64,000 nt of DNA from Xanthostigma xanthostigma. Lineage: Eukaryota > Arthropoda > Insecta > Raphidioptera > Raphidiidae. Made by a program: the position numbers and the translations under genes. The notes below the pieces were generated by a model. The model ran no database searches, had not been told where the DNA came from, and was given only the letters and a program-made list of their open reading frames with translations. The DNA lies in contig OY754470.1 of assembly GCA_963575645.1 (NCBI GenBank), positions 5,340,501 to 5,404,500 of the forward strand, in the 5' to 3' direction. Of this stretch, positions 2,858 to 62,625 are shown piece by piece. Each line of letters begins with the position of its first letter. Position 1 is the stretch's first letter.

Positions 2858-2917
2858 TTATCGACTCATATCTTCTTGGTTTCCGTGCTTGTATGCCGTG
2901 GTCCATTTGTATTTCCA

Positions 2918-2958
2918 CCTGACGTTTCGTCTACAACTGCGGTAGACATTATCAAAGG
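2918..2958 (-). ncRNA. Hammerhead-ribozyme-like motif, minus copy
   Basis: Reading the minus strand: stem I strand CCU, core UUGAUAA, one unpaired U, stem II GUCUAC with 7-nt loop and GUAGAC, then GAAACGUC and stem I strand AGG. This is the layout of the small hammerheads known from Penelope-like elements, which lack stem III and are thought to act as dimers through the self-complementary ACGU. The core differs from CUGANGA at C3 (U) and G8 (A), a pairing-preserving double change. Activity is unproven. Confidence 0.65.
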
Positions 2959-2994
2959 CGATGTGGTAGCGGGCGAAGTGTCCTTCTAGGCTGC

Positions 2995-3193
2995 TCACAG
3001 GTAAGTGTGTCGACAAGTGTGGTACTTCCGTCTCGTGTTCTCTACTCGGTCGTAGTATGCTCTTCTTTGATTGGTCGTTCCGTTCAGTGGGTTGGTATTG
3101 CACAGTGCTGGTGTCCAAGTTTTACTTACATTCAAATCTTCATCTTTCCGGTTTAAATTATTTGTGTGTTTGTGTATTTCTATGGCCTGAAAG
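2995..3193 (-). pseudogene. C-terminal remnant of Penelope-like polyprotein
   Basis: The minus-strand frame gives FQAIEIHKHTNNLNRKDE, then LNVSKTWTPAL, and ends at a stop at about 2995. REAIEI..K..NN.NR.....LS.TW.P is the conserved tail that follows the GIY-YIG endonuclease in Penelope-like proteins. Only about 65 residues remain. The reverse transcriptase and the endonuclease catalytic part are missing. On this strand the remnant lies directly upstream of the hammerhead-like terminal segment at 2918-2958, the position expected for the coding end of the element. The family assignment rests on remembered motif shape, not on a search. Confidence 0.7.
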
Positions 3194-3217
3194 GACACTT
3201 CGACAGCTATCACATCG

Positions 3218-3258
3218 CCTTTGATAATGTCTACCGAAGTTGTAGACGAAACGTCAGG
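3218..3258 (+). ncRNA. Hammerhead-ribozyme-like motif, plus copy
   Basis: This is the inverted partner of the 2918-2958 motif. Stem I is CCU/AGG, the core UUGAUAA, stem II GUCUAC/GUAGAC (loop CGAAGUU), and the end GAAACGUC. The loop differs from its partner while both stems and the core are unchanged, as expected if structure is what is retained, although recent copying would also explain it. Confidence 0.6.
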
Positions 3259-3350
3259 TAGAAATACTAATGGCATACAAACCCGGAAACTAAGAAGATT
3301 TGGATCAACACCGGCCGTGAAAGCCTACACACTTGGATTATCGACTCATA

Positions 3351-3794
3351 GTTTACAAGGGCGTAGATATTTTTTTTCTGGAGGGAAGTAAAAAAATTAA
3401 TATTATTTTAAAAAGACACTTGCTATGCACGACTCATAAAAAATCATTAAATAAAGGCAAAGGCCGACTCTGAACATTTAATAAACACCTCCAGTTGACA
3501 GTTTTAGCGGCTTATTTTCTATCCACACCCACGAAATGTGACAAATTATACTCATTACGTAATTAATTGACCTTTTTTCATCGATTGCTATATTGAAATT
3601 ATATTGCCAATTGATAAAATTCTGTTGTATTTATTTTAATGACGCCTTTTCCAAGGTCTCACTTCTTGTACCAAAACAACAGTATCCGGTGTCACAAAAT
3701 AACAACAATAAATTTTAATTCAAAATCTATTGAAAAGGTGGTTTCAAAAGTACAAAAATCAATTTAAATTATGCAAATAATAAAGTGTTCACTT
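3351..3794. other. No recognised feature
   Basis: AT-rich sequence without a coding signal. Confidence 0.4.
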
Positions 3795-4166
3795 TATAAT
3801 AATAACGGTATACTTTTCATAACGGCTTATTATTTTATTTATTTTTTCAAGAAAGTTTCGTTAAAAATTTTTTTTTCTAAACTTTATAGTATCGGAAATA
3901 TTTTGAAAATAAAAAAAAAATCAGCCGCTCTTTTGTTTTATGGATCTGTCAGAAATAAACTAGTTCAGCATGCTTTGATTAATTTTTACATGACGTGGAA
4001 CATACTATGTAGGTAACCATGGCAACGAATAGCAAATATCATATTGAATACTAGCCATTACCCGCGTCACCTCACGCGATATCAGAAATTTTATTTTCTT
4101 TATTATAATCAAATGCCAACATTTTTGAAGTTGGAATATTCCCGTCGCCCAATTGGATGGAATTTT
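3795..4166 (-). repeat. MITE family M1, partial copy
   Basis: This is the reverse complement of the M1 core: AGCATGCTGAACTAGTTTAT, a GATCCATAAAACAAAAGAGC-type block, GATATTTGCTATTCGTTGCC, and the terminus CAATTGGGCGACGGGA. Other copies are at 9445, 14805, 31003, 33380, 57143 and 59931, with a tandem-expanded form at 19205. The reading frames here are chance products of the repeat. Confidence 0.85.
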
Positions 4167-4419
4167 TTAGTGGTTTTTGGACCAATTTGTATAGACTAAT
4201 ACTAACAGACAGATATATATGTGTATATTTATTATATGGAAATGAACTTCTAGCCGCGCTGTGGCAAATGATATTAGCAGCTCAGAAATACTGCAGAATA
4301 CATTATTATATCACTGATGCCATATTATACCAGATATCGGCTGAGATAACCGCCTCTACATAGACGCCGTGTTCATATTTTGTTTTTGGGCACTGATTTA
4401 ATTTTTAACTGACTTATGC

Positions 4420-5020
4420 CCATATTCACCGAACACTATTAAAGATAGAAGTTACTATTCTTGGCACAAATTTATTCGTTAGAATATAATTTACTTTCAA
4501 TTCACCAAGCAAAATATCAGATAGAAAAATTAGTTATATAATAAATATACACTGCACTATACTCTCTACTCCTTGCTCTTTTTGTTGAATATTTTGACGT
4601 TCACCCAAAAATCCGGCCGATGGCGTTGTGTAAACTAAAAAAAATGTTTCACAAAATAACAATGTTTTATCCTAACCCAATTGCACACAAAACTTCCACT
4701 AACTTTATTATTTTACAACTATACACTTCACAAAAGGTTAATAAACACCGAATACATAGGATTCACAAGAGCAAACTGCGGATATAATACTTCACGTTTA
4801 TAGGTTAGGTATTATAATCTATGTGGCGACCATTATTATATTATCAGGCGAATAATTATTTATACCCGAGAATTTGGACAGAATAGATTAATACCTGTAT
4901 AGTAAACATACTTATGCTTGGTGAATTGCATTATTGCTATTTATTCGGAGGAATAGCTACCTGTAGAACAAATGAACCGAATAAATAACTACTTAAGTAC
5001 TTACGTTCGGTTATTCGTTC
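4420..5020 (+). mobile_element. Non-autonomous TIR element, CCATATTCACCGAAC family, copy 1
   Basis: It begins with CCATATTCACCGAACACTAT and ends with a degraded inverted copy (GTTCGGTTATTCG). Subterminal CAATTCACCAAGC and GCTTGGTGAATTG are also inverted. The body matches 53076-53638 in opposite orientation, e.g. TTGAATATTTTGACGTTCAC and CTATACACTTCACAAAAGGT. There is no open reading frame. The superfamily is undetermined because no clear target duplication is visible. Confidence 0.8.
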
Positions 5021-5354
5021 CACATGATTAAATTTAATATTGATGGAAATCCCATATACTACGCCACTGTGCTGAATTCTTCATAATAAATGTACACCGA
5101 TTTAAAATCTCATTTAAAGTCACAGATATACATGTCGGGCCGTTTAATATTTATAATTATTATTAATTACTATAAATCCATTCGCTAAAATATACCTAAT
5201 ATCTAGATACATAATGCGTACAACATAAAATAATTAACTATGCTTCCTAATCTCAAAATTACAATTTGTTATCACTGTCTTGTGTACATACACTACACCG
5301 AAATATCTAGGATGGAATTAATATTATATTACACGAGATGTAACATTATGTTGA
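5021..5354. other. No recognised feature
   Basis: AT-rich sequence with no repeat partner that I could find. Confidence 0.4.
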
Positions 5355-5504
5355 AACGTAGCGTGATATTATATAGCCTATAGCCTTCCTCGATGAATGG
5401 GCTATCCAACAAAAAAATTTCAATTCGAACCAGTAGTTCCTGAGGTTATCGCGTTCAATCAAACAAACAAACAAACTCTTCAGCTTTATATATTAGTAGG
5501 TAGA
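5355..5504 (-). mobile_element. Helitron fragment (5' terminal half)
   Basis: On the minus strand the fragment starts with TCTACCTACTAATATATAAA, matching the family start TCTATACTAATATATAAAGC. It continues through AACTACTGGTTCGAATTG and the CCCATTCATCGAGGAAGGC block. The 3' half with the terminal hairpin and CTAG is missing. Confidence 0.75.
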
Positions 5505-5788
5505 TTATTTTTTACATCGGCGTCTCTAATTTTTTTGCAGGATGTATATGTTTTCATTAATTGAATTCAATATAAATATTTTGTCATCAGAATACGAAAG
5601 TGTGATCGACAAATATATTATTTTTTCTGCCTTAATTAATCACACTTAAAATTCATACCATTCAACAAGTTATCTATATAGGACTCGGTATTTACTGCAA
5701 TTTACTTTAGACATGGGAAAAGTCGTTACTAAGTATATGATCACAGTGACTGTTATTCCAGTTACACAAAAAACAATGAAAAATCATC

Positions 5789-6004
5789 GTGACTTTGTCA
5801 CGTGGATCCCGACCGAGCAATCACCTGCCAGAAGATATAAAAAATATAAAAACCTTCAGAAATTTAAAAAAAAATATTGCAGATAGGCTGATAAGGTTAG
5901 AATTATATAAAGTCCTAGACTACTTTGAAAAATTTTTAATTTTGTATTGTATGACTCTATACATGTATTTTATACCTCTGTACGTAATAAATCATTATTA
6001 TTAA
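5789..6004 (+). pseudogene. LINE ORF2 C-terminus and 3' tail
   Basis: The frame reads NHLPEDIKNIKTFRNLKK and continues to a stop near 6002, followed by an ATTATTATTA tail. The pattern NxLPxxIKN...F...FKK is typical of the very C-terminus of Jockey/CR1-like LINE reverse transcriptase proteins. A related end at 58820-59216 reads FNKIPDNI..KHFKNKLETFL. The first residues (TLSRGSRPS) do not fit the family, so this is a heavily 5'-truncated, decayed copy. It has no host function that I can infer. Confidence 0.65.
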
Positions 6005-7420
6005 ATCACTCGGTCGTACGTTACGTCGTCTACTCGATTGGAGCGACCGTCGTGATTGCGGTGACATAGAGCAACATACGTTACGAAGTGACGCTGAAAG
6101 AGGAGTTGAAAATACACGAGTGAACTCAGTCCAGACAGGTTGAAAATACACGCGTTCTATATTGTACTTTGATAGTTCCGATTTCCAGAATGAAACCCCA
6201 GGTTGTTGTTTTTTTCGAACCGAGAATAGTTTTACCCCGTCCAGTTTAAGGATGTAGTCCTATGTCCAGGCTCGTTTTCAACCCTTATTTCAGAATTGTT
6301 TTTTAATTACAAAATAGTGTACAATCATTTCAATTTTGTTACATGTTTTTACTGACATTGTAAGTTAGGAAAAAAATTTTTTTTTGCTTAATTTTACGCT
6401 ATTTTATAATTGTTTTTTTAACCCAAATTAGACAACTTTAAATGGAGGTAGGTGGGTACCGCGGGTGATAACGTCACTTGAAGTCATCTGGATTATAAAA
6501 ATTAAATTGGTCATTGTTTCGTAGGCTTGTGGCTCTATCCCGTACTAGAAATAAACATTTTTATTGATAAATAACAAAATGGCGGGTTTAAAAAAAATCG
6601 GTTAAAAAATATAAATAATTTTTATAATTAAGTAATTCTAGTACCGGACGGAGCTATTGTTGTGTAGAATACTCTGTGCAAAATTGAAAGCAATCGGTTG
6701 TATACAATTGTTTCAATCACCCGCGCCGCTTACAAAAACGTAGTTTTGAGAAAAACGCGTTTAAAGTTTTGATTTCAGATTTCTTACAAAAAAATAAAAA
6801 TGAATTTTTACACTAATCAGCTATGCCTGATGTATAGTAAACCTTCCGTTTCTTCAAAGGCATCGTTTTCTGCTAATTTTTTTGTTCTACTCTGCGAGAG
6901 TATAAGCGTGATAACAATTGAGAGGTATAAGAGTCTTACCGTAAGACCGTTGCTGCTCTCGACTATATATTATACCTTTGTAAATATTTAATATTTCGGT
7001 CTAAAATTTTTACAGAATTTTCTCAATATATTAGGCATACTTACTAAAAATGTAAAAAAAATAAATTCGATTTTCCGAAACCCGAACATCAGACTACGTC
7101 CTTAAGTATTCGAACGTAACTCAGAGCGCTGCAGTTGGTTTATTATCATTAACATTATATGATCTCGTTTGCTGACCAGGCTACCGACAGACACCACAGA
7201 CAGATCTTTAAAAGTCTGAAGAGTGCCTCTAATAACAGACATCAATAATATTATACAAATCAAAAGAACTCTACAACTTATGAAAGTGCAACGGGCAGGC
7301 ACTGGACGAAATGTATGTCCTTCAGATCGAGAAACAAAACCCATATAATTGTAGAGGAGGGTACGCTGCCTTTGCATGTATACGAGGTGCGTCACATACG
7401 CTATTTTTGCAAGCACTTTT
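6005..7420. other. Unassigned region
   Basis: The stretch at 6005-6160 is locally CG-richer and holds GTTGAAAATACACG twice (6107 and 6140). The rest is AT-rich with chance frames, including a 104-codon minus frame at 7102-7416 with no recognisable domain. I see no gene. Confidence 0.35.
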
Positions 7421-7985
7421 GAAGTAAAACTTCTTTAAGCACACGCTTGACTTGGGGAGTAAGCTGGTGAATGCGTGACGAGAGCGTTTAGGAAAAGTGT
7501 GATCGGGCGAGGCGAACGGAAGTTGACGCGAACGGTGATTTGGATGACAAATACTTCAGTGGCTAGTGGCGCCATCAGGTGGCCGAAAATATAAGCAGTA
7601 CTAACAATACAATGACACATACTTTACTTGCCAGTGGCGCTATCGGGTGACAGAAAAAAGTTTTGTAAACCTACTTTAAATAATAATATTTCATAAAGAT
7701 TTACGCTTAAAATCCAGCGAGAGCTAAGTAATTGCAATGTATTACTTTTGTTTTCATTATCTTTGTGTTTATATTTCTTTCTTCTTACATTAGACTGCAG
7801 TTCAATTCGTTTTTGAACAATTTTATAAATTAATATTTTGTTCAATACATTAAATATTCTACGTTTAAAGTGAATAAAATTGTAAATTCATTTTAAAGTT
7901 CATATTTTGTGAATTTTCGGGTGAATAATAACAAATTATGGCAGGAAGAAGTTTTACTTCAGTCGTGTGGTCTAAAGCAGACTCG
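7421..7985 (+). repeat. MITE family GAAGT, copy 1
   Basis: Both ends carry the self-complementary GAAGTAAAACTTC or its near inverse GAAGTTTTACTTC (7421 and 7948). The body contains TAAGCAGTACTAACAATA, GGTGACAGAAAAAAGTTTTG and GTGTGGTCTAAAGCA. Other copies are at 49719-50270 (same orientation) and 42355-42976 (inverted). There is no coding capacity. The class is unknown, but it looks like a non-autonomous DNA element. Confidence 0.75.
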
Positions 7986-8495
7986 TTTTTTTTTCAACCG
8001 CTTTTGGATCCTGGAATCACGTCAGTGTTGAGTCAACTAGAGTCTATAGACGTAAAAATAGCAATTATTGTAAAATTTATACAAAAAAATACGATGAATA
8101 TTTGACTGCTCCATGTACAGTAGTTTCTTTATTTCTTGGGAAAAACGGCCGTACAGACTGTATAATTGCACACTAACCACGAGATAGACGAAAATGTTAA
8201 ACACGAATTATTTTATAACATCGTCCGTCCTTGTCTAATTATTATTAAAACACTAAAGTATGTTATGATTATTCCACATTATGACTGCCAGTCTGTTATT
8301 TGTTTTTGGTCATTATATCAGTGTATACGAGGTGACTTAATAATCATTTACACATAAAAGATGTTTAGTCCACCAAACAAAAATATGACTTTCGGATCAC
8401 GCCAAAATATAAATTTTTTTCTTAATAAACCAACTGACTATCACTGAGAATAATAATGTTTACTTTATAAAGATTTTTACTGACTGGAGCTTGAA
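7986..8495. other. No recognised feature
   Basis: AT-rich sequence with only short frames. Confidence 0.4.
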
Positions 8496-8509
8496 TCCAG
8501 GAAAATTAC

Positions 8510-8890: not shown

Positions 8891-8899
8891 ATAAAGAGT

Positions 8900-11204: not shown

Positions 11205-11295
11205 TTATTATTTTTATTTTTAATCTTTGATAGTGCAATAAACCTGGGGTAAGTAGGTTTATTGCACTATCAAAGATTAAAAATAAAAATAATAA
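11205..11295. repeat. Perfect 41-bp-arm palindrome
   Basis: The left arm 11205-11245 (ends TAGTGCAATAAACCT) and right arm 11255-11295 (begins AGGTTTATTGCACTA) are exact reverse complements, separated by 9 nt. A transcript would fold into a 41-bp hairpin. I saw no clear target duplication. It could be a foldback element or a recent inverted duplication. Confidence 0.9.
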
Positions 11296-13733: not shown

Positions 13734-14455
13734 ATATATAAAGCTGAAGAGTTTGTTTGGTTGAACGCGATAATCTCAGGAACTACTGGTTCAAATTGAA
13801 ATTTTTTTTGTTTGGATAGCCCATTTATCGAGGAAGGCTAAAGGCTAATTATAATATCACGCTACGACTAATAGGAGCGGAGCATCAATGAAAAATGTTG
13901 CAAAATGTATCTCAAAAATAAGCTTCTATTCAGGTGAAATGCCCTAACTAAATATACTAATATTAGCGTTGTACATTCACAAGCCCGGCTGGCTCAGTCG
14001 GTAGAGCATGCGACTGTTAATATCAGGGTCGTGGGTTCGAGCCCCGCGTTGAGCGAATATATTTTTAATTTTTTTTTATTTTCTATATTGCCTTTTTCTA
14101 AGGCTTACATTTAAATTTATTTTAATTTTATTTACGACTAATTAAAATTAAATAAATCTAATTAATAGCTCATTTGAAAACTGTTATAACTATAGGTACC
14201 TATATAAAAATAATTATCGTACAGTGTTTTCAATTAAATATTTATTATATTTTATTAATTACAGTAATTATTGATTTAAAAGAAATTTATTATTTAAAAA
14301 AAGTATAAATACTGCTTTTTATCGACAAAAACTTTTGAACGGTAACTCCGATCATCATGAAATTTGGACACAACATTAAAGATGAATGTGCGTACTCATG
14401 TTCCTCCCTTCCCATTCGTTTTTTGCACCCGGGTGAAACCGGACGGGACCGCTAG
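13734..14455 (+). mobile_element. Long Helitron carrying a tRNA-Lys-like sequence
   Basis: It starts with TCTATACTTAATATATAAAG after an A and ends in GGGACCGCTAG before a T, the A/T insertion site of Helitrons. The 3' terminal hairpin is CCCGG-GTGAAA-CCGG shortly before CTAG. Shorter family members (44524-44883, 45827-46173) go directly from CAACATTTTTCATTGATGCT-type sequence to the GACAAAAACTTTTGAACGGT block. Here about 360 bp with a decayed tRNA gene sits between them. The same cargo is in 26116-26743. It encodes no transposase and needs an autonomous Helitron in trans. Confidence 0.88.
13983..14055 (+). pseudogene. tRNA-Lys-like pseudogene in Helitron
   Basis: A 73-nt cloverleaf resemblance: acceptor GCCCGGC/GTTGAGC (one mismatch), D arm GCTC..GAGC, T arm GTGGG-TTCGAGC-CCCGC. 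A box TGGCTCAGTCGG and B box GGTTCGAGCCC are intact. The anticodon stem TGCGA/TATCA has two mismatches and the loop reads CTGTTAA, so the normal Lys CTT anticodon is lost. A T-rich run follows, which could terminate RNA polymerase III. Not expected to be a functional tRNA. Confidence 0.8.
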
Positions 14456-31275: not shown

Positions 31276-32271
31276 CAATTTTCTAGGTGAATTTATAGTA
31301 TCTATTATTTTGGTTGGTCAGATCAACTCTGATGTTAGTTAAAATAAATTTTAAACTTCAACTTGAAGATTACAAAAAAAAATAAGGGCCCTATTGGACT
31401 TCAATCAGCCGTTTCAAAAAACCTAAATTTTTAGCTACAAAATTCTGCTATCAAAAATTAAAGAATCATTTTTTACTACCAGCTATCCATGTTTGAGTAA
31501 AAATGTCGTTTTTTCCATGTTAATAAAATTGGAAACAAACTCGGTTTGCGCCGTTCACAGGTTTGATCTAGAAAGTTTGAGGCCGTGATGATGAAAATAA
31601 ATTTTTCGAAACGTTGGCCACTAGCGAAACATTGGTAAAGCTTATTTTATGATCCTCAACCAAAATCTTCCTTCATCTTAACATTCTATTGGATCCACAC
31701 TACTTTATACTGAAAACACCCTAATAAATATAATATCCTAGCGTCTGAACAACGTTCGCAACTGTCTATTTTTATTTTATAAACAACAAAAGCAGTCATA
31801 AAATAGGAATGCAATAAATACTGGAAGCTCTCTCACACACTCATAGACCACGGCGACAGCACATACGACTAAAGGACAGTGGTTGATGGAATGGCATTGA
31901 GACAATGTCAACCACAACAATTATAACTGATTATGATGTATTCTTGCATCTATCTCAACTACATCATCTACATTGCACGCAGACGAATCCAAACATCTAT
32001 CTGGAATATCTTATTACTGAATCTATTATTTACAATTGTATTATTGTCTGCAAAAATTAATTGTTTCTGCGCCGCTTTTTTTAATAATATTTCCATTATG
32101 TTTGTACTACTTCTATGTCTGCCTTCTGCTGCCATTGTAAAAATATAGATTTTATGAATATTTTTGAATTGGGCTGCTCCAGAAATCAACAATACGATAT
32201 TTTAAACCAGGGATGACGACTGAGTCGGTGTCCAGCATTATTATTTTGGTTAAGATTATTTACACTGTGAT
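31276..32271. other. No recognised feature
   Basis: AT-rich sequence. Frames around 31933-32192 overlap on both strands and show no known domain. Confidence 0.35.
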
Positions 32272-32444
32272 ACCGATGGCGCAGTGGTGAGAGCACTGAA
32301 CTCGCATTCGAGAGGTACGGGGTTCGAATCCCGACGGGGGCAAACGTGGCTGGGGACTTTTTTCCTACTGCCTCTCGCCGAGAAACAACAATTCCTGTAC
32401 CGGCCATCTTGTTGAGGTTTTCATGATTTCCTTCAATCATTCCA
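32272..32444 (+). mobile_element. SINE-1 copy C1, truncated
   Basis: Head with A box TGGCGCAGTGG and B box GGTTCGAATCC, body to TTCAATCATTCCAG, where it is abruptly replaced by the head of the next copy. Likely a head-to-tail double insertion or a template switch during retrotransposition. Confidence 0.85.
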
Positions 32445-32862
32445 GGGTGGCGTAGTGATGAGAGCACAAGACTCGCATTCGAGAGGTACGGGGTTCGAAT
32501 CCCGACGGGGGCAGACGTGGCTGGGGACTTTTTCCTATTGCCACTCGCCGAGAAACGGTAATTCCTGTACCGGCCATCTTGTTGAAGTTTTCATGATTTC
32601 CTTCAATAATTCCAGATTAAACATCGAGATGGCTCCTTATCCAAGGCAATGGCCGATTGTCAAACTCCTATGCTCAAAATTTGCCTACCTTATCCTAATT
32701 TCCTAAAAATTCCTTCATTCGCCCATTGCTATTAATTAAGTGGAAGTTCAAAAATGTAGAAACTAACGGGAAGTGTGATAGATCGAAAATAGTAATAGTG
32801 CGGATGACGTCTGTTATGACATAAAGTCGAGTAACGGACACTAAACGCATTATTATTAATAT
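32445..32862 (+). mobile_element. SINE-1 copy C2, full length
   Basis: Starts within the A box (GGTGGCGTAGTGATGAGAGC), has an intact B box GGTTCGAATCC, the complete body (CATCGAGATGGCTCCTTATC, GATGACGTCTGTTATGACAT) and an ATT-rich tail ending near 32862. Confidence 0.88.
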
Positions 32863-34855: not shown

Positions 34856-36616
34856 GTTATATCGATATTTTTTACCCATGCCTAAGCATTAATACAATTG
34901 CATTTAACAGAAATCAGGTCTTTAGAGACGATGTGCTCGAACGTTTAAATTTTGTTGCTGATATATTCTATAATAAAAGCATCTCTTTATATGATACATC
35001 TACATTTGTATTGCCGGATGATGTATTGCCGTCTTGCCGCATATGTACATACACGTTATATACTGGACTCTATATCATTTACGAGCCCACAGCTGAATAA
35101 ATTGATTCAGGGATATTCTGCACAGAACCGACGGAAACAAACTGGCGGCTCACAAGACCGACGCCTGCAACCAACGATGGAATTATAACCGACGAGCGTG
35201 ACATGACAATGCTCCAAAAGCATCGATTCTCTGGTCCGCGATGACAAAATGCGAAGAGTTCGATTTTTGAGTCAAAAAACCTACCAAGCGCTTGTCGGGT
35301 TTCGCAGTGTTCTTATGACGTATTTACGGGTCGCAATCGTTGCTTGACACTAATAAAAGCAGAATGTGACCTACCAAAAAAACCAAGTAAATATCGACAG
35401 GTACACTAGTGACATCGGACGGTTTTTTATATAGCCGTGGTTCTTGTCTCCGCTATTGTAATAGAAATATGGCAGTCATATAAAACTATAACCATAAGGA
35501 AAGATCAATTTGTTTATATCTTCAAATCTTAGATTAACGTCTGAATAGAATTAACTCTACAAATAAATAAAATTATCGACCAGTTTTTTAAATAATGATA
35601 CAAATTTCTTTAAAAGAGGTATTTTGGAGATGTTACATATAAAATCTAATAAAAATTGTCTTAATGCTCAATTAGATACGGAAAATTTAAGTATTATTTT
35701 GAAATAATATTTTGTTTTTAGTGAATTTTTTCTTTCTTTTTAGGTAGTTAGATATCCATGACTACTTATTAAAAATTGTTTGTTATTAATTTAAGTAGAT
35801 ACTAATTAATTTTTATATTTTTTTTTTGGATTATTTATTATAAGCTCCAAATCCGGACCGAAACTTCATCTATTGAATTATAATTTTATAACTTTTTGTC
35901 AATATACCTACAGTTTGAAAAAATTGGTCGATAATTTTATTTATTTGTTTATATCTTGTTCAAAACAATTTTAGTATTTACAAAGTGCCGCTCTCTTGAT
36001 TTTTTCAGATTTTTTAATCTCGGAGGGGCGCCAACCCTTATTGAATATGTATGCCAATGAATTCTTAAAATTCAAGACCCGTCTGTGTTTTAATGGTATG
36101 ATTCAAAGATAAAATCTAAGAATGATAAAAAACAAGTGGATATTTCAATACTTTGTCATACGGTACAATGATGCAAAATTTATAGTTGAATAATTCAATC
36201 AATTAAACAATTCGAATCACCTGTAAATGTACAGGATGAATACAGATTAGGTGCATTCTTTGTTACATAAATTATATATTAAATATAAATATTATTTATG
36301 TAACCGTTTTCAATACGTTAACATGGTTTTGAACATACATTTGTGTTTATATAAGTATGCATATGAGTACAGTAAAGTACAGATTATACGCGATTGAAAT
36401 GAAACGGCAGCGACAACCGTAGAACCACTTAAAAATACAAATGTTTATACACTTTGATTTTATTTCACCCCTTCAGAGTTGTTTTTTGAGACAAACACTA
36501 GCCTGGGTCCTTCCCCAGGATTAAATCTCTCTCCTTGCCAAATTTTATCGAAATCTGTTCAGCGGTTTACACGTGACAGCGCAACAAACAAAGAACCAAC
36601 AAACAATATAATATTT
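34856..36616. other. Unassigned region
   Basis: 35510-35560 contains TCTTAGATTAACGTCTGAAT, shared with an arm of the palindromic insertion at 47964-48139. Around 35135, AACTGGCGGCTCACAAGACC resembles a retrovirus-like primer-binding site, but no LTR pair is seen. 36470-36600 has CAGCGGTTTACACGTGACAG-type repeat sequence. The rest is featureless. Confidence 0.35.
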
Positions 36617-46714: not shown

Positions 46715-47114
46715 ACCAGTGGCATCGGTCGGATGGCGGGATCTAGGAGTCGGACCAAAATTTTTCGCCGTTTCATACCGAAGAATTACGAGAACACAAA
46801 TCTTTAATTATGAGAATATGTTTTAAAATTGAAATTTAACCCTTTAGTAAAGATTAAAACGTGCTGCTAAAATTTTAATAAAATCGGCCTAACGCAGGAC
46901 CGAACTTTTTTGAAAACACTAATTTGCAGATAGCTGAAGGGTATATACCTATAATTTGGTGCAGATATTCTATTATATTTCAAATATAAAAATTAAAAAA
47001 TATTTTTATTATGTTAAGGGATGTACTAAGGGGTTTCATTTAGTCCATAAACGAACTTAAGTTAACAGACCAAAATATATTATACTGTCGGCAGGGTTTG
47101 GCACTGTGATCCGA
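46715..47114 (-). repeat. Dispersed repeat R3, copy 2
   Basis: Inverse of 11620-12300: TCCAAAATTTTAGCAGCACG-like and GCAGGGTTTGGCACTGTGAT blocks. It is broken at 47115 by the hammerhead-bearing insertion. Confidence 0.7.
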
Positions 47115-47259
47115 TTTTTTTTCAATTATGAAAGGATGAATTAATTCGGCTATAAAAATGATTTCTGATGATATAGTAATATGTTGCCGACGTTTCGGAA
47201 AATATATTGCCTTCCTCAGGGCTTACATCTGTGAAATTACAGGTATTTTTTTTCAATTA
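47115..47259 (-). mobile_element. 117-bp hammerhead-bearing insertion with 14-bp duplication
   Basis: TTTTTTTTCAATTA at 47115-47128 and 47246-47259 is a perfect direct duplication bracketing 117 bp. The insert holds a hammerhead-like motif on the minus strand and no coding sequence. It is the smallest member of the set. The T-rich duplication weakens the argument slightly. Confidence 0.7.
47183..47225 (-). ncRNA. Hammerhead-ribozyme-like motif with canonical core
   Basis: Minus strand: stem I GCC, core CUGAGGA (fits CUGANGA), unpaired A, a short imperfect stem II beginning GG and ending CC, then GAAACGUC and stem I GGC. All conserved core positions are present. Stem II is weak, so folding needs checking. 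Confidence 0.7.
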
Positions 47260-47954: not shown

Positions 47955-48148
47955 TATTTTTGCGATATCGTGTCCATCGAGATTATAATTAATAAGAAAA
48001 ATCGCAGGATTGTGGACAAAAAGTTAGATTTATTAAAATCTTAGATTAACGTCTGAATAGAAATTTATTTTATTTGAAGATTTCTATTCAGACGTTAATC
48101 TAAGATTTTAATAAAATCCTGCGATTTTTCTTATGAATTTATTTTTGC
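47955..48148. mobile_element. 176-bp palindromic insertion related to 52796-53061
   Basis: TATTTTTGC (47955-47963 and 48140-48148) flanks the insert. The arms pair through AGATTAACGTCTGAATAGAA and its inverse. Terminal segments GATATCGTGTCCATCGAG and AATCGCAGGATTGTGGAC are shared with the hammerhead-bearing insertion at 52796-53061. The centre reads TTGAAGA..CAGACGTT, which may be a decayed hammerhead core. Confidence 0.65.
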
Positions 48149-51360: not shown

Positions 51361-52283
51361 TAGGTAATGCAATCCAGATCTCGAGAGATCTCTATCTTGC
51401 GAGTTCTCGAGGCATTTTACGAGATCAATCTCGAGGCATAAATCGGGCCAGATTGAGCGGTAGTAGTCAGCGACTCCCCATCATGACGATATGCTAGGCG
51501 ATACCGTGATGAGGTACACAGCGAAGATCGAGGAGGGGTTTTAGTGGGTATACTTCATTGGGAATCCCACACTACCATTCATTTCTTTTTTGTTTGGTGC
51601 CTATAAAAGGTTTCCCCTACTGTGGCAAAAAAAAGTCAGAGACTCCACTGTCAGAAGATCTGTTCAATTTCAGAGCGTCGAATTAATGCTGAATTGTCAT
51701 GTTTAAAAGATTCATGTAATTATCAAGATGATTTCGAAACATCGGGCAACGAACTTCCAAATTGCGTAATAGGAGTATCATACGAAAAGAAATCAAGAAT
51801 ATAAAACGATTATAATATTGCAGTCACCAAAAATCAGATCCTCTTCCACTTGCCTGTACTTCTGGTAATGTGATCAATTTGACAGCAGACAAAAATGAGG
51901 ATAACTTGTCTCTTCTAATGGTTGCAGATGACTCAAGATGCATTAGAAGAGGCTCTAATGGCATGTAAATGTCCTTTTAATAACAGACAGACTAGATGAA
52001 CTCATAAAAAGATAAATGAATCTCTGAGTGTGGAGGAACAAGGGGCTAGTATTTACAATTTGCTTATAATTGGTCCCAGTGTTTAGCCCAGAAGGACATT
52101 TTCAGCTGCTAGGCACATAACAGCCGACATAAAATTCCGTTTAAAATACTCTTTGTTTTTTAAGAAGCCAATTCCAAAATCACCCATAGATTTTTAAAAA
52201 TTACGCGAGTTCCCCAAAATTCCGAAATGTCTAGTTCCGCGAGATCTCGAAATTGCGATCTCGTCTCGAGACTGCATTCCCTA
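51361..52283 (+). mobile_element. hAT element, 923 bp, decayed, with perfect 8-bp duplication
   Basis: Perfect TTCGTAAC at 51353-51360 and 52284-52291. TIRs TAGGTAATGCAATCC (left) and TAGGGAATGCAGTC (reverse complement of right), followed on both sides by CTCGAGA-rich sequence. The interior keeps a transposase C-terminal scrap (52087-52169). hAT transposases cut and paste with 8-bp duplications, so this is an internally deleted or decayed former autonomous copy. Confidence 0.9.
52087..52169 (+). pseudogene. hAT transposase C-terminal (dimerisation) remnant
   Basis: The plus frame reads PRRTFSAARHITADIKFRLK, then YSLFFKK. SxRxFSAA followed by ...R.RL.......LFF.K is the conserved C-terminal dimerisation motif of hAT transposases. 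Upstream sequence in the element (51620-52080) contains short frames with many stops. Non-functional. Confidence 0.75.
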
Positions 52284-52783: not shown

Positions 52784-52844
52784 AATATCTATTATAAATA
52801 AAAAAAAATCGCAGGATTGTGGACAAATATTAGATTTCTTAATT

Positions 52845-52885
52845 GTACGACGTTTCGTCTATAAAATTTAGACTTTTTCAAGTAC
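52845..52885 (-). ncRNA. Hammerhead-ribozyme-like motif, left arm
   Basis: Minus strand: stem I GUAC, core UUGAAAA, unpaired A, stem II GUCUA/UAGAC, GAAACGUC, stem I GUAC. Stem I pairs perfectly over 4 bp. C3U and G8A change together. Confidence 0.6.
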
Positions 52886-52941
52886 AAGTTGAAAATTATT
52901 AAAACAATTATTATTATTATTGTTTTAATAATTTTCAACTT

Positions 52942-52982
52942 GTACTTGAAAAAGTCTAAATTTTATAGACGAAACGTCGTAC
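52942..52982 (+). ncRNA. Hammerhead-ribozyme-like motif, right arm
   Basis: Exact inverted partner of 52845-52885 on the plus strand, with the same core and stems. Confidence 0.6.
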
Positions 52983-53075
52983 AATTAATAAATCTAATAT
53001 TTGTCCACAATCCTGCGATTTTTTTTATTTATAATTATCTCGATGGACATGATATCTAATAAATATCTATTATGA

Positions 53076-54725: not shown

Positions 54726-54792
54726 CACATTGATATTTATATTAATTATTATTTTTATATTTATACATACTTATATAAATTACTGTTTTGTC

Positions 54793-54930
54793 ATGGAATC
54801 TTTCAAATTAATTGTCAACCACTTCCAGACGTCTGAATAATTTGAAATTTTGTGCACGTATTAAGGTGTGCAAAATTTCAAATTATTCAGACGTCTGGAA
54901 GTGGTTGAAAATTAATTTGAAAGATTCCAT
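54793..54930. repeat. Palindrome with ~65-bp arms
   Basis: ATGGAATCTTTCAAATTAAT at the left pairs with ATTAATTTGAAAGATTCCAT at the right, through CCACTTCCAGACGTCTG / CAGACGTCTGGAAGTGG. Loop about 8 nt and about three mismatches. No target duplication found. It has no GAAACGUC motif. Confidence 0.88.
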
Positions 54931-54979
54931 TAGATAGATACATATACATAAGATAGTGTTAAAAACAATTGCAGACAAT

Positions 54980-55402: not shown

Positions 55403-55410
55403 CAGACAAT

Positions 55411-55999: not shown

Positions 56000-56089
56000 T
56001 ACCGAATTTAAATATAGCGGATGTACTATAAATAATATGAGCGGAATTATGAAAATTCTAGCAGACTGCGGGGAACCCAGCGATTCCAT

Positions 56090-56660: not shown

Positions 56661-57142
56661 TTAATGTAAAACAAAGACGTACATCACATTGGAATTTTAA
56701 TTAAAGTAATATCAAGGGGGTAATGGAAACGTTACGATCGGGAAAGGATGTTTAAAAATAGTGGGAAACAAATCTTACACAAATACTTCCACGTTCCCAT
56801 AACTCCAATTTAAAATACAACGCAACGCGTAATACATTTTTTTTTGCAAAAAAAAAATATGCTGCCAAATTTTTTTTGAGAAATGTATGTTGATAGTATC
56901 TGTTTTCATGAGTTCTTAAACCTCTTTGTTATTACTGGCTTAATTCATTTTGCGGTTAGAGCAAAGCGCGAGAAAGCAATCAACTAGTTCATGTATGTAC
57001 GCATGATGGAACGCTGACCACAGATTCACGATTCCTATTTTACCGACATATTGTCGATAAGAAACTATTCTATGACCAAGTCAAACATCAGTTACAGTCG
57101 TCTCTGCTTATCCCACCTCTCGATTATCCGAAAAAAAAATTC
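56661..57142. other. No recognised feature
   Basis: No gene or repeat recognised. Confidence 0.4.
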
Positions 57143-57560
57143 CAGCCAATTGGGCGACGGGACCATTCCAGCTTCAAAAATGTTGACATTTGATTATAAT
57201 CAAGAAAATAAAATTTCTGATATTGTGTTTGGTGACGCGGGTAATGGCTAGTATTCAATATGATATTTGCTATACGTTGCCATGAATACCTACATAATAA
57301 TATGTTCCACGTCATGTAAAAATTAACCAAAGCATGCCTAACTAGTTTATTTCTGACAGATCCATAAAACAAAAGAGCGGCTGATTTTTTTATTTTCAAA
57401 ATATTCCCGAAACTATAAAGTTTAGAAAAAAAAATTTAACGAAACTTTCTTGGAAAAATAAATAGAATAATAAGTCGTTATGAAAAGTATACCATTATAA
57501 TATAAAAAACACAGTTATAGCATATATCTCTTCTGCGCATGCGCCGATTTCAATCTAATA
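57143..57560 (+). repeat. MITE family M1, 3'-truncated copy
   Basis: AGCCAATTGGGCGACGGGAC through to CTGCGCATGCGCCGATTTCA. Ends after the GCGC palindrome. Confidence 0.85.
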
Positions 57561-58222
57561 TAGTTTGCAATTATCGCGTAGGATGGCGTCACATTCGCTC
57601 GCTTTCAATGATGCACTTCTTATAAGAAACTAATTATAATATTAAAGGCCGTATTCTTTTATTACAATAAAATAGAAGTTTGAATTTTTTTTTAAATCGG
57701 TTTGTTGATCTAAATATTTGATATTAATTTCAAATTAACACCTCCAGACGTTCTTACAAAAAGGGAACGGTCAAATAGACAGACATAAGAACCAGACGTT
57801 TTTTTCTTCTGAGTTATGAAACGCTAAAGACGATATAATATATTTCGAGTTAAAATGTGAACCTCCTCCTTTTTTTTATTTTGATTAACTCAAAGGATGC
57901 TTCTCTCAAAATGCATAATGTCTGAGATACAACATTGCCATTGTTCGGTCGTCATATTACTGAAATAAGAACATAATATACTTTATCAATTCAGACATGT
58001 GATAATTCAGAATCGGACTAGTTCGATCATTCAGGCGTGTAGCCAGATAACCTCGGCTATTCGCTCGGTCAAGGCAATTCCAATTCAATGAAGAACAATA
58101 TTATAATAATACTTATTGGAAATGGCGGAATGATATCCCAATAAATTGTACTAAATATTTTTATATCGATATAATACATAAAATGTCTGCAATGAAATCG
58201 AATTCAAATAATTTATAACCGA
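57561..58222. other. No recognised feature
   Basis: AT-rich sequence with no signal. Confidence 0.4.
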
Positions 58223-58535
58223 CTAGCGGTTCCGCCTGGCTATACACTCAGCGGAAAAAGAACGAAAGGGGGGGGAAGGAATGAGTACGCACGTTCATCT
58301 TCGTTTACCAAGATGAATGTTGTGTCCAAATTTCATGATGATCGGAGTTACCGTTCAAAAGTTTTTGTCGGACGGACAAACTCTGAGTTATATTTTGCAA
58401 CATTTTTCATTGATGCTCCGCTCCTATTGGTCGTAGCCTATAGCCTTCCTCGATTTCGATAAATGGGCTATCCAACACAAAAAAAATTTGAATTCGAACC
58501 AGTAGTGTCTGAGATTAGCGCGTTCAACCAAAACA
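58223..58535 (-). mobile_element. Helitron, 5' end lost
   Basis: The 3' end (minus strand CAGGCGGAACCGCTAG before T) is present. The start region CAAACAAACTCTTCAGC is missing, so the element is 5'-truncated. It carries the family G-run at about 58267-58276. Confidence 0.8.
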
Positions 58536-58814
58536 ACGCGAAGATTTTTGGGATGTTGTATTTTACGGACTTTCAAACTATATTTTATTGTTACTGTGTT
58601 TTAATATACAACTTAAATATTGTTATATTAGCACGGTGTTGCAAAATTAATTGTTTTGAGCCACTGAACATTTTCGTTTCAGTATTATAGTATTTGCTTA
58701 TATAGGAATAATATATATATATATATCTGAGGACGACACGTCGCGACGGGGGCGGTTCGGGTGAGACGCGAGTGGAAATGGCTGAGAGATAGACATGGTG
58801 CTCAATCATGGATC

Positions 58815-59216
58815 GATTGGACAATTTTTAAGGGTTTATGTAGGGTTTATATATTTAAGTTATGTGTTTTCGTTTTTAAAAACATCGATATTTTAAAATG
58901 TGACACTATGCAACACCAATATGAAACTAGAAAAAATAATCTTATGATACCAACTCATCGATTGACTCTATACAAAAAAGCCTGTCTATACAATGGAATA
59001 ACAATTTTTAATAAAATACCCGACAATATAATATAAAAAATATTAAATCGCTAAAGCATTTTAAAAATAAATTAGAGACTTTTTTAATTGAAAGAAATTT
59101 TTATAGTCCAGACGAATTTTCGTAACATATTTTACTGTGTAATACCTATGTACTGACCTTTTGTATCCAACTTTATTGGCTATGCAAATAAATTATTATT
59201 ATTATTATTATTATTA
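58815..59216 (+). pseudogene. LINE ORF2 C-terminus with (ATT)n tail
   Basis: Plus frame: CRVYIFKLCVFVFKNI, then QHQYETRKNNLMIPTHRLTL, YKKACLYNGITIFNKIPDNI, and after one frameshift KNIKSLKHFKNKLETFLIER-NFYSPDEFS. The order H.Y.TR..NNL..P.HRL......YNGI..FN.IP..IK....FK..L..FL marks the C-terminal end of Jockey/CR1-like LINEs. A single frameshift and a good tail (ATT repeat at 59197-59216) suggest a moderately young 5'-truncated copy. The upstream CTGAGGACGACACGTCGCGA at 58725 precedes the homology. Confidence 0.8.
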
Positions 59217-59694
59217 AAATAATTATTTTTTGCGTTTGGAACTGGAGAACCGCACTTGTACATCAAAAGAGCCGCAAGCGGCTCGCGGGCGCAGATTGCA
59301 GACCCCTGATCTAGGGGATATGGAAGTGGAACTAATCATCATCAACGTAAAGTTGGTCAAAATTTAAGTTACTAAATTTCATATTTGAACTTGCATTTGC
59401 GTTCAAATTTCAGCGGCTGAGGGGCTACCGCTCACACTCAAAATATATTCCATTTTCATCTGACACAAGCAGACCTTATTCACCATGGTTATAGACATAG
59501 AGGTGGTGTTCTAAAGACGATCCGGACAGGTTTTCGGCGATACATGCATTCGCAAAGCGAAGTACACATTAATACAAACAAATAAATAAATGCATTGCGA
59601 GCATGTATATGGGTGTAATACACTTTACCCACATATGCACAATTGTCTGATATACAAAACGTTTGGAAAATGCCATTTTTTTATTTTTTTTTTC
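59217..59694. other. Mostly unassigned; one hAT-like end
   Basis: AAGAGCCGCAAGCGGCTCGC and GCAGATTGCAGACCCCTGAT-CTA (59268-59314) look like the terminal part of a hAT/ZBED-type MITE. The other end was not seen. Confidence 0.4.
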
Positions 59695-59930
59695 ACCGAG
59701 TGGTGTAGCGTAGTGGTCAGAGCACTAGACTTGCATTCGGGTGGTACCGAGTTCGAATCCCGACGGGGGCAGATGTGGCTGGGGACTTTTTCCTATATAC
59801 TGCCTCTCGTCGAAGAACGGTAACTCCTGTACCGGCCATCTTATTGAGGTTTCCTATGGGTTCCCTCAATAATTCTAGATATAAATATCGAGATGGTTCA
59901 TTATTCAAGATCATGGCCGATTACCTGTCG
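59695..59930 (+). mobile_element. SINE-1 copy D, 3'-truncated
   Basis: A box TAGCGTAGTGG, B box GTTCGAATCCC, body to GGCCGATTACCTGTCG, where it is joined directly to M1 sequence (AAAAATATTTCCGAAACTAT). The tail is missing. Confidence 0.85.
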
Positions 59931-60013
59931 AAAAATATTTCCGAAACTATAAAATTTTTACAAAACTTTCTTGAAAAAATAAATAGAATAATAAGGCGTT
60001 ATGAAAAGTATAG

Positions 60014-60197
60014 GTACCATTATTTGAAGATTGACTCTATTCAATTAATAGAGTAACTGTGATCCGTTGAAGTTACTGATGAGTATTTGGAAGGAATTCC
60101 GTGGCATAAGGATCGAAAATGAAGCAATACTGAGATTATTTTAATAGTAACGTTTCGATACGTTTTGTATCATCTTCAGAGTGTTTGTACCATTATT
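60014..60197 (-). mobile_element. 162-bp hammerhead-bearing insertion in M1, 11-bp duplication
   Basis: GTACCATTATT at 60014-60024 and 60187-60197 flanks 162 bp absent from every other M1 copy, which run AAGTATACCATTATTATATA without a break. The insert has a hammerhead-like motif on the minus strand and no coding sequence. The empty sites make the insertion call strong. Confidence 0.88.
60145..60183 (-). ncRNA. Hammerhead-ribozyme-like motif, canonical core
   Basis: Minus strand: core CUGAAGA, unpaired U, stem II GAUAC-AAAAC-GUAUC (perfect 5 bp), then GAAACGUU. All conserved core bases fit. The cleavage triplet would be GUU. Stem I next to the core pairs poorly, so this copy may be weak or inactive. 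Confidence 0.72.
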
Positions 60198-60554
60198 ATA
60201 TAAAAACACCATTATAGCATATATCTTTTTTGCGCATGCGCCGATTTTTGTCAAAAACAATAGGGCTCTTCATATTTGCATATCAAACATCTTCTCAAAA
60301 TTTGGTTTCAATCCGTTCATCCGTTTGACCTGTCTCGTGTTCACAGACAAACAGACGCATATAGTTTTTCCAAAAATGCGTTTTTTTGGATTCGGGAGGC
60401 CTCAAAACCAAAAAACATTGTAAAATTTTGAAAAGTGAATTTTGACCTAAACTAGTTACCATTCCCCACTTGTGGGTTGGAATGGTAAAAGTGAAAAGGA
60501 CAGTTTGTATATATTGGAAACAATCGTCCAATATACATTTTAGCTGCATACAAG

Positions 60555-61075
60555 AGTCGTGTAGGTATATCCAGAAAGTCAGTCGTAACGAACGAGCACA
60601 GTCTAACGTGTCATTGAGTCCAGTTCTGCGTACGCGTACGCGCTATGACTGTGACGCGTCCAGAAGGAAATGTATGTAAGATATGTATCGGTGGCCGTAA
60701 ATTGGCTGCATACGTCGCCATTCGGCGAAGACAACAAGTGGATATGTTGGGGAACCACGGGGAGTCGCGGCCAAGGGGAGGATGCGACAGATCAGAATGC
60801 GCGTGTGTGTGTCACCTTAAACATTCACGCAAAATTGTACGCAATGTCGCGCAAAATACGTTCGACTTGCCGAGAGAAAAAAAAATGTTTATCGTCCGCT
60901 GCGACACCGACGCTATGACTTACTAGGCGGTACCCGCGACTTCTCACGCGATCGAAACGAAACACGGATGCGTTCCCGTTATGTATTTAGCATAGTTACT
61001 ATACTTTGTCGACGTGGACATCTGCTAAGAACGGATTCTATGCTAATCCTATCCAAAACGAATTTTTCACCTACC
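60555..61075. other. CpG-rich stretch, possible 5' gene region
   Basis: Unlike its surroundings this stretch is rich in CG dinucleotides (GTACGCGTACGCGCTATGAC, GTTCCCGTTATG) and contains two overlapping frames of 82 and 93 codons without recognisable domains. It could be a promoter/5' UTR or first exon of a host gene, or part of an unrecognised element. Confidence 0.35.
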
Positions 61076-61087
61076 GTATACTACATT

Positions 61088-61112
61088 CTCTCTCTCTCTC
61101 TCTCTCTCTCTG
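61088..61112. repeat. (TC)n microsatellite
   Basis: Uninterrupted TC repeat followed by an imperfect CTCTCTCTGG. Confidence 0.9.
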
Positions 61113-61114
61113 TA

Positions 61115-61570
61115 TCTTCCTCTCTCTGGAAATATTATTGTTACACGCTGCCCGTTGCGACGACAAAGGATTTCGCGAGACAACAATAGGCTCGTCATTC
61201 TAACAATGACACACAGGTTGTTGTCTAAACAATTTATGAGTTTCATTAATTACTGTGCTTTGTAACATTGGTTCACAGGAACGCGCTTCTTTACATGTAA
61301 ATGAATCCCGATATATACAAAGTGAATAAAAACATCCCGATAAAAGAATGTAATAGCCTACAACGCATACCTATAGAAGAAGAATTGGAATGCGCTCCTG
61401 CGCATGAAAACACGGAATATTATAACTAAGAGTAAATATGTACAAATGCATCCAATACCTCTTGTACACGGTGGCAAGGCGAAGTGATTTATGTACGACT
61501 TTGAGCAAATTCGAATTTAACATGACCGGTTTTTATGCAGGAGACAGCATTTCTGATTACATGCCTTGAA
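61115..61570. other. No recognised feature
   Basis: No gene or repeat recognised. Confidence 0.4.
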
Positions 61571-61749
61571 GGATCCCGCACACACCTTATGGGATTTGGT
61601 TCTCGGTTAAATTGATCGAAAATGGTTTTATTTATAGTTTAAAGGTAACTAAGAAAAAGTGTCCTTGTGGACATACCCTAAAAACCAACAGATTTTTTGC
61701 TACAGATATGTTTAACGATATTTTAGATATAGAAATATCCATTGAATTC

Positions 61750-62092
61750 TAGAACTGTAAAAGTAACGAGAAATTGCGTACCCGTATGTATTCGTTACTT
61801 AAAGAACCAGCACCCGTTACTTTCGTATCGTTACGTTACTCGTTACTTTTCATACGACATACAATCGTGTACTAACAGCATCAAGCATGTACCATCGCAT
61901 CGAGGCGCGTCGCATACGTGATACGGTATGACTTCGTTCGTATAACGTATAACCGCATCAAACGAGTCGAACTGACATGGATACGACAAATGCAAATAAC
62001 GAAATGAATTTGTAAGTAACGATTTGTTACTTCGAGTCAGACGATGTACCCGTTACTCAGTAACGAATACATAAGGTTTGTTACAGCTCTAA
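61750..62092 (+). mobile_element. hAT-like MITE, 343 bp, with empty site
   Basis: Flanks TTGAATTC (61742-61749) and ATGAATTC (62093-62100) match at 7 of 8. Ends TAGAACTGTAAAAG and GTTACAGCTCTA are inverted. At 27380 the same host sequence reads CCATTGAATTCACAATCTT without interruption. It contains several GTTACTCGTTACTTTT-type repeats. Confidence 0.82.
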
Positions 62093-62385
62093 ATGAATTC
62101 ACAATCTTACGCTCTAGAAATGTGTTTTCGAGTGCGCTGAATCCGAATATGACACTATTATTTTTATACAGGGTGACACCTTCCAGCATTACCTACTTTT
62201 CGACTATTTTTCTATTTCTAAAAGAAAGCACAAAAGTTGAAAATGGAACATGTTTGTGAATGCAATGGATATCCCTATATCTAAAATCTCGCTAAACATA
62301 TCTTCAGTTAAAAATCTATTGGTTTTTTGGCCATGCGCCCATGGACACTTTTTCTTAGTGACCTTTTAAACTATAAAATAAAATA

Positions 62386-62625
62386 ATTTTCGATCAAGTG
62401 TGTAGGCTTTCACGGCCGGTGTTGATCCAAATCTTCTTGGTTTCCGGGCTTGTATGCCGTGGTCTATATTGGTATTACTACCTGAAGTTTCGTCTACAAC
62501 TGCGGTAGACATCATCAAAGGCGATGTGGTAGCGGGCGAAGTGTCCTTCTAGGTCAGGTAGTAATACCAATGGACCACGGTATACAAGCCCGGAATCCAA
62601 GAAGATTTGGATCATTCTCGATCAA
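62386..62625 (-). mobile_element. 216-bp Penelope-like insertion, 12-bp duplication
   Basis: ATTTTCGATCAA (62386-62397) and ATTCTCGATCAA (62614-62625) flank 216 bp that interrupt an otherwise continuous arm. The insert has the same terminal sequence as 2871-3337 (GTGTGTAGGCTTTCACGGCC, GATCCAAATCTTCTTGG), one full hammerhead-like segment and a shortened inverted end. No coding part remains. Confidence 0.85.
62481..62523 (-). ncRNA. Hammerhead-ribozyme-like motif, intermediate core
   Basis: Minus strand: stem I CCU/AGG, core UUGAUGA (only C3 changed), unpaired U, stem II GUCUAC/GUAGAC, end GAAACUUC (a G-to-U change in the conserved ACGU). Positions 3 and 8 would be a U-G wobble, intermediate between the canonical and the U-A form. 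Confidence 0.55.

Follow-up and report, generated by a model that had tools for sequence, protein, structure and literature searches.

Short insertions with hammerhead-like motifs in Xanthostigma xanthostigma: probable truncated terminal repeats of Penelope-like elements

What are the short insertions with hammerhead-like motifs that lie scattered through the genome of Xanthostigma xanthostigma? The question is raised by a window of 64,000 nucleotides (assembly GCA_963575645.1, contig OY754470.1, positions 5,340,501 to 5,404,500; "the window" refers to this whole stretch), in which an earlier reading of the letters alone, here called the original prediction, had described five such insertions and had named Penelope-like elements and animal retrozymes as known carriers of small hammerheads. 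Our analysis makes it probable that the inserts are truncated terminal repeats of the Penelope type with small hammerheads, a kind of sequence that is already known. Less expected, and new to us, are a class of thousands of matches with a U3-A8 core, a core placed on stop and start codons, and a family whose stem I contains an intron.

All five insertions are present in the sequence, about where they had been placed, and each is flanked by a direct duplication. The duplications range from 11 to 15 bp rather than from 11 to 14 bp as first described, and that of insert 5 contains one mismatch. Among 4000 random sites with matching spacing (insert 5 being scored on its 8 exact bases), 0, 0, 1, 7, and 7 equaled the exact duplication lengths of inserts 1 to 5, respectively. 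Inserts 1, 3, and 5 are also inverted repeats, a trait absent from the original prediction. Their arms match over 89 nt (91%) and a further 31 nt (87%) in insert 1, over 111 nt (98%) in insert 3, and over 45+18 nt (93% and 100%) in insert 5. The motif lies in both arms of inserts 1 and 3 and in the left arm only of insert 5. At least four sequence families had been proposed, and four were found: the insert 5 unit matches the insert 1 arms at 92% and 87%, which places both in one family (family 1/5), and separate genome searches assigned inserts 2, 3, and 4 to separate families. No insert holds a complete coding sequence, as had been stated, but insert 1 does contain a piece of an endonuclease-like open reading frame (ORF).

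A motif of the form CUGANGA ... GAAACGUY had been attributed to every insert. It is exact in two of the five, inserts 2 and 4 (0.00 occurrences expected in the window from 100 shuffles), and the other three deviate from it. In inserts 1 and 3, each arm has a UUGANAA core (UUGAUAA or UUGAAAA) with GAAACGUC, and insert 5 carries UUGAUGA with GAAACUUC, that is, a damaged motif. A core at a fixed distance from GAAACGUH is present in four of the five inserts, exactly in 2 and 4 and in U3-A8 form in 1 and 3. A descriptor requiring a paired N3-N8, a stem II of 4 bp, and a stem I of 2 bp found four sites in the window, one in each arm of inserts 1 and 3, whereas 300 shuffles averaged 0.003; inserts 2, 4, and 5 escape it through weak stems or an altered motif in the window copies. 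The same descriptor, run on 248,400 bases flanking other loci, gave 10 matches, one of them counted twice. A single unpaired base separates A9 from stem II in all 14 descriptor matches, and stem III is absent beyond ACGU in the family copies examined.

The pairing of the core is strongly maintained across the genome (623 Mb, 28 contigs). We counted the pattern N3-TGA-N-N8-A followed by 8-22 bases and GAAACGTY, used its reversed form as the control, and obtained 19,930 C3-G8 cores (control 74) and 6,255 U3-A8 cores (control 407), compared with 1,224 C3-A8 cores (control 157) and 1,191 U3-G8 cores (control 124) in the mismatched classes. The paired classes together are about elevenfold more numerous than the mismatched ones, which must include single-mutation decay of paired cores. 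The cross-ratio of the four counts, ~85, is not a probability because copies within families are not independent. Motifs of this kind number in the tens of thousands in the genome, and the rare paired core change is present in many of them; the ~26,000 matches in the two paired classes amount to a natural mutation experiment on the hammerhead core. Passages of PMC3088659 describe the same compensatory exchange of C3-G8 for U3-A8 in "several" natural hammerheads, as compared with the thousands of U3-A8 matches counted here in one genome, and report that ribozymes with a U3-A8 core are active in vitro.

Stems I and II are backed by covariation. We aligned five motifs from the flanks of other loci in the genome (alignment A4, with one N placed in the loop of two rows). 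Its stem cells are 90% paired, and its covariation score of 0.887 was reached in 0 of 500 shuffles, with slid controls at or below 0.287; the number of pair types was reached in 20 of 500. This test is tilted toward pairing because four of the five motifs were picked by the stem-demanding descriptor, the fifth (L128) having come through a looser pattern, and the alignment stands for about four families because L135 and L191 are closely related. A covariance model built from A4 with no window family included, R1, matched insert 4, both arms of insert 3, and insert 2 (E values in the table). The motifs are thus hammerhead-like as claimed, lying far above chance and keeping their pairing genome-wide by core counts, covariation, and R1. 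In ViennaRNA folds compared with 1000 shuffles, the right arm of insert 3 reached a predicted probability of 0.876, a value equaled by 312 of the shuffles.

Coordinates of the insertions, target duplications, and hammerhead-like motifs in the window (R1 values are E values)
Feature	Position	Strand	Description
Insert 1 target duplication	left 2858..2870, right 3338..3350		exact 13 bp
Insert 1	2871..3337		head-to-head inverted repeat, probable Penelope-type terminal sequence, family 1/5
Insert 1 left-arm motif	2917..2959	-	hammerhead-like, U3-A8 core; missed by R1
Endonuclease-like C-terminus fragment in insert 1	3019..3189	-	residues 46-102 of ORF 2995-3324
Insert 1 right-arm motif	3217..3259	+	hammerhead-like, U3-A8 core; missed by R1
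Insert 2 target duplication	left 47114..47128, right 47245..47259		exact 15 bp, low complexity
Insert 2	47129..47244	-	insertion with single arm
Insert 2 motif	47186..47222	-	hammerhead-like, C3-G8 core; weak stem II in window copy; R1 9e-5
Insert 3 target duplication	left 52784..52795, right 53062..53073		exact 12 bp
Insert 3	52796..53061		near-perfect inverted repeat, family 3; tail on one side only
Insert 3 left-arm motif	52845..52885	-	hammerhead-like, U3-A8 core; R1 8.3e-5
Insert 3 right-arm motif	52942..52982	+	hammerhead-like, U3-A8 core; R1 8.3e-5
Insert 4 target duplication	left 60014..60024, right 60187..60197		exact 11 bp
Insert 4	60025..60186	-	family 4 member with single arm
Insert 4 motif	60146..60182	-	hammerhead-like, C3-G8 core; stem I decayed in window copy; R1 1.2e-8
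Insert 5 target duplication	left 62387..62397, right 62615..62625		11 bp, one mismatch; 8 bp exact at end
Insert 5	62398..62614		inverted repeat, family 1/5, right arm short
Insert 5 motif	62480..62522	-	damaged hammerhead-like motif, UUGAUGA ... GAAACUUC; missed by R1
Sixth hammerhead-like motif, outside the five inserts	31577-31623	+	G3/G8 core, GGCC/GGCC stem I, AU-rich stem II; R1 0.01

Conservation within families was measured over 39 arms of family 3 and 79 arms of family 1/5, arms without a whole motif having been dropped. Family 3 diverges by 0.000-0.008 in the core, GAAACGTC, and the stems, as opposed to 0.092 in loop II and 0.074 in the rest, and N3-N8 is U-A in 39 of 39 arms. The corresponding values for family 1/5 are 0.033 in the core, 0.025-0.032 in the stems, 0.059 in GAAACGTC, 0.047 in the loop, and 0.057 in the rest, with N3-N8 being U-A in 73 arms, U-G in 3, C-A in 2, and U-U in 1. 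The motif is therefore kept above neutral sequence clearly in family 3 and weakly in family 1/5, in which GAAACGTC fares no better than the remainder of the arm.

Copies elsewhere in the genome share the architecture of the window inserts. Other near-full-length relatives of insert 1 are 81-87% identical to it, and first-look searches returned 188 candidates for family 2 and 1,044 for family 4. Near-terminal direct repeats flank 18 of 21 family-3 loci (L187 and L196 doubtful), 14 of 30 family-5 loci (L128 and L135 doubtful), and 6 of 10 family-4 regions. These copies thus have the target-site duplications characteristic of Penelope-like elements, with lengths of about 10-16 bp. They also have the inverted or direct pseudo-long terminal repeats (pLTRs) with an optional tail that are typical of such elements: all 21 family-3 loci, which a query with this same layout had selected, combine one long-tailed arm with one short arm. 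One family-5 copy (L146) has a long foreign stretch between its arms, and this stretch holds inverted repeats of its own.

Family 1/5 abuts C-terminal coding sequence homologous to a public protein, P0001. A first homologue search found none and a second found two. The ORF piece of insert 1 (residues 46-102) is 49% identical to P0001, and the longer ORF of locus L171 is 57% identical to it over 63% of the query. P0001 contains GVYRIPCSCGSVYIG and EKSALAEH, with GVY...YIG read by eye, and we take it to be a GIY-YIG endonuclease of Penelope-like elements, a label without confirmation from Pfam or PDB. A genome search with it gave 151 matches, with 150 of 3,243 candidates scored, and by our own reading at least 10 of those listed overlap family-1 places. 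In the frames inspected, the coding sequence of family 1/5 terminates with ...RRTLRPLPHRL and then one or two stop codons. The first of these coincides with U4-G5-A6 of the core, and A9 opens an ATG. A rough motif scan of the fetched loci yielded nothing that we took for a reverse transcriptase. A 416-amino-acid open frame beside a family-1 copy (L180:238-1485, minus strand) is presumably a reverse transcriptase of the long interspersed nuclear element (LINE) type. The suggested Penelope-like link is thereby supported for family 1/5, in which P0001-homologous coding sequence adjoins the repeat; for families 2, 3, and 4, we infer the enzyme.

How might such inserts arise? They would be short, mostly 5'-truncated pLTRs of Penelope-like elements, each with the small stem-III-less hammerhead of its element. 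The element's GIY-YIG endonuclease would cut both target strands with a stagger of ~10-16 nt, and on one strand or both, reverse transcription would start at an internal position of the template RNA, which would leave a one-sided tail. When both strands are extended, the two cDNAs would join head to head in the middle of the insert, at least sometimes via short homology, and repair of the stagger would generate the target duplication. The hammerhead, overlying the end and the start of the ORF, would cleave RNA and so separate tandem transcripts. Excerpts of PMC11167929 report that both strands are cut and extended, that reverse transcription starts internally, and that a hammerhead overlies the ORF start, and excerpts of PMC3846280 describe inverted head-to-head pLTRs with an optional tail on one of them, duplications of 8-10 bp, junction palindromes, intron retention, and a self-priming model, perhaps with an antisense template. 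The Penelope/Poseidon group resembles the present families in its head-to-head inverted terminal repeats, its optional tail at one end, its target duplications, its hammerhead over the ORF start, and its endonuclease-like C terminus beside the repeat (here in family 1/5). It differs in that the copies described here are mostly reduced to repeats and that their duplications are somewhat longer than the 8-10 bp given for the elements of Adineta vaga. Two-sided priming, to which we give an even chance, would explain the insert geometry of families 3 and 1/5, whereas self-priming of one cDNA would explain the similarity of family-3 arms. These diverge by 0.028 within a locus as opposed to 0.090 between loci, whether same-side or opposite-side arms are compared (21 loci), and the partner arm is the nearest relative in only 17 of 42 arms.

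The motifs can also be set beside the small hammerhead variants of Penelope-like elements that reportedly cleave as dimers (Lunse, Weinberg and Breaker). Like variants of that class, the present motifs have no stem III beyond the ACGU palindrome, short stems, and, in families 2 and 4, a C3-G8 core. The motifs described here may differ from that class in the unpaired base between A9 and stem II seen in every descriptor match, in the U3-A8 core of families 1/5 and 3, and in the intron in stem I of family 4.

Several results weigh against a Penelope-type origin with working hammerheads. A covariance-model check had been proposed with the original prediction, and its outcome is divided: R1 detects three of the five inserts but neither insert 1 nor insert 5 even at E 10, and Rfam, applied to the whole window and to inserts 2 and 4 alone, yielded no hammerhead family up to the same limit. 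Rfam hammerhead models expect three stems. The predicted fold probabilities of the insert 1 arms are 0.42 and 3e-4, the improbable fold being that of the right arm. Pfam and PDB gave no convincing match for the ORF piece or for P0001, and the putative GIY-YIG assignment of family 1/5 rests on motifs read by eye. The arms of family 1/5 are no closer within a locus (0.082, n = 20) than between loci (0.068), and because arm similarity differs in this way, no single inverted-repeat origin fits families 3 and 1/5. Furthermore, the 5' ends examined in families 5 and 4 point to no clear ribozyme-cut templates, and ribozyme mutants still insert according to an excerpt of PMC11167929. In family 4, inspection of ten regions by eye showed no 5' end at the predicted cut. 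In family 5, the predicted cut (unit positions 69 and 70) is the starting point of 11 of 107 arm matches. We rejected this clustering as evidence for ribozyme-cut templates because six loci (L126, L130, L132, L133, L138, and L142) share the junction via the homology CAGGTA and because 30 of the 60 loci were chosen by similarity to insert 5, which itself has a junction there. CAGGTA is a short homology between the antisense repeat and the post-cut sequence, and it accounts for much of the clustering, though not for each of the 11 starts.

The 5' ends without a clear sign of cut RNA, together with the insertion without ribozyme activity reported in that excerpt of PMC11167929, would suit an explanation in which the motif is kept for another reason, such as protein binding, the start of reverse transcription, or overlapping coding, and RNA cleavage has been lost in most families. 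Because the core of family 1/5 lies on stop and start codons, part of its conservation could indeed be coding. However, the paired exchange of C3-G8 for U3-A8 and the covariation of the stems follow ribozyme pairing, and U3-A8 cores can be active in vitro, as reported in the passages of PMC3088659. We consider this explanation unlikely.

Less probable still, and in our judgment a poor prospect, is an animal-retrozyme origin of the inserts, retrozymes being small units without coding sequence that spread as circular RNA cut by their ribozymes and rely on another element's enzymes for copying. The non-LTR retrozymes described in parts of PMC7229834 are likewise non-coding and numerous, with type I hammerheads and duplications >4 bp, and no element coding sequence was seen in the fetched family-3 and family-4 regions. 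Those retrozymes form short tandem repeats, whereas the copies described here are single-armed or head to head. Among the first 100 listed places of each core class, 20 pairs of C3-G8 neighbors lie within 600 bp, of which 19 are head to head, 1 is tandem, and 0 are tail to tail (~1.2 in all by chance); within 1,500 bp, the counts are 21, 3, and 1, respectively. The U3-A8 neighbors within 600 bp comprise 10 head-to-head and 3 same-strand pairs. The direct tandem units with type I hammerheads that identify animal retrozymes did not emerge among these close pairs, and no monomer bounded by the cut site was seen, the family-5 cluster of 5' ends there being largely the 6-nt homology. The absence of a stem III beyond ACGU also speaks against retrozymes. 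The parallel drawn in the original prediction thus extends to small size, lack of coding, and hammerheads, but retrozymes fit worse than Penelope pLTRs because close motif pairs are mostly head to head rather than direct tandems. It is very improbable that the inverted repeats are relics of DNA transposons resembling miniature inverted-repeat transposable elements with an incidental motif, since the long inverted repeats and target duplications of inserts 1, 3, and 5 and the average likeness of family-3 arms within a locus, which such relics would share, are accompanied by ragged ends, a one-sided tail, single-arm copies, duplications of variable length (about 10-16 bp), a covarying motif, and adjacent coding sequence, which they would not.

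Within the Penelope-type families, family 4 is distinguished by an intron. Its full motif reads GCATTTGAACACT CTGAAGA T GATAC AAAAC GTATC GAAACGTT AGTATTAAATGC. Loci L220 and L221 contain a ~75-nt intron, GTAAGT...TTACAG, between GCATTTG (GCCTTTG in L221) and AACACT, and L222 and L215 contain its 3' part. The joined, intronless form is found in L211, L212, L214, L216, and L217 and partially in L213. Exact matches genome-wide number 303 for the joined form and 119 for the unspliced acceptor, with 0 for the control in each case. The window copy, insert 4, starts one base ahead of the start of exon 2. Because this GT-AG intron interrupts stem I in its 5' strand, the outer helix GCAUUU/AAAUGC would form only in spliced RNA. 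The minimum-energy fold predicted for the joined form by ViennaRNA has the inner and outer parts of stem I, stem II, and one extra pair using G12. Stem II and inner stem I together have a predicted probability of 0.29-0.33 in the joined form versus 2e-4 to 6e-4 in the unspliced form, in which CAGA, containing the CAG of the 3' splice site, is predicted to pair with UCUG of the core. Shuffled upstream sequences do not give statistical support to the outer stem I: the spliced value of 0.338 was reached by 57 of 1000, which is suggestive only, and the unspliced value was exceeded by 874 of 1000.

These folds raise the tentative hypothesis, possible but not one that we would favor, that the family-4 hammerhead is assembled by splicing, so that cleavage by the ribozyme would be confined to transcripts already processed by the spliceosome. 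If true, this would link the processing of retroelement RNA to splicing, and a functional splice-split stem I would constitute a ribozyme switched by splicing, of which we found no instance in the open-licence literature searched. On the same condition, the insertion of both spliced and unspliced forms would imply sense RNA as the template. Passages of PMC3846280 discuss as an open question which RNA strand, sense or antisense, is copied by Penelope-like elements, and the coexisting spliced and unspliced copies of family 4 bear on it.

The original prediction had further inferred an active system from the density and variety of the motifs. At the genome-wide rate of one C3-G8 motif per 31 kb, 2.05 are expected in 64 kb, and the window holds 2; the 4 U3-A8 motifs exceed the 0.64 expected, but all are arms of just two inserts. 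For this genome, the window thus ranks between ordinary and mildly rich, and a high density finds modest backing in the U3-A8 class and none in the C3-G8 class. The description as active was not upheld, the main listed matches being about 81-97% identical to the window copies.

Other signals in the window and beyond it are minor. A pattern search of viral contigs gave no match, and 120 stretches from another viral-contig search, which entered no analysis, may be phage hammerheads or chance. At 35832-35877 on the plus strand lies a decayed motif lacking part of the core (R1 E 0.11). Long hairpins at 54816-54905, 48034-48110, and 11210-11290 gave microRNA or small-RNA model matches below the Rfam gathering scores; we guess that these are probably small inverted-repeat transposons. 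A tRNA match at 13983-14055 on the plus strand (39.1 bits against an Rfam gathering score of 29) is possibly the head of a tRNA-derived short interspersed nuclear element. The ORF translations at 32186-32706 and 59709-60056 look alike by eye (GFESRRG... and VRIPTGA...), which suggests a shared repeat, perhaps tRNA-derived. Finally, a weak match to R2 retroelement RNA lies at 51517-51624 on the plus strand (28.1 bits against a gathering score of 38).

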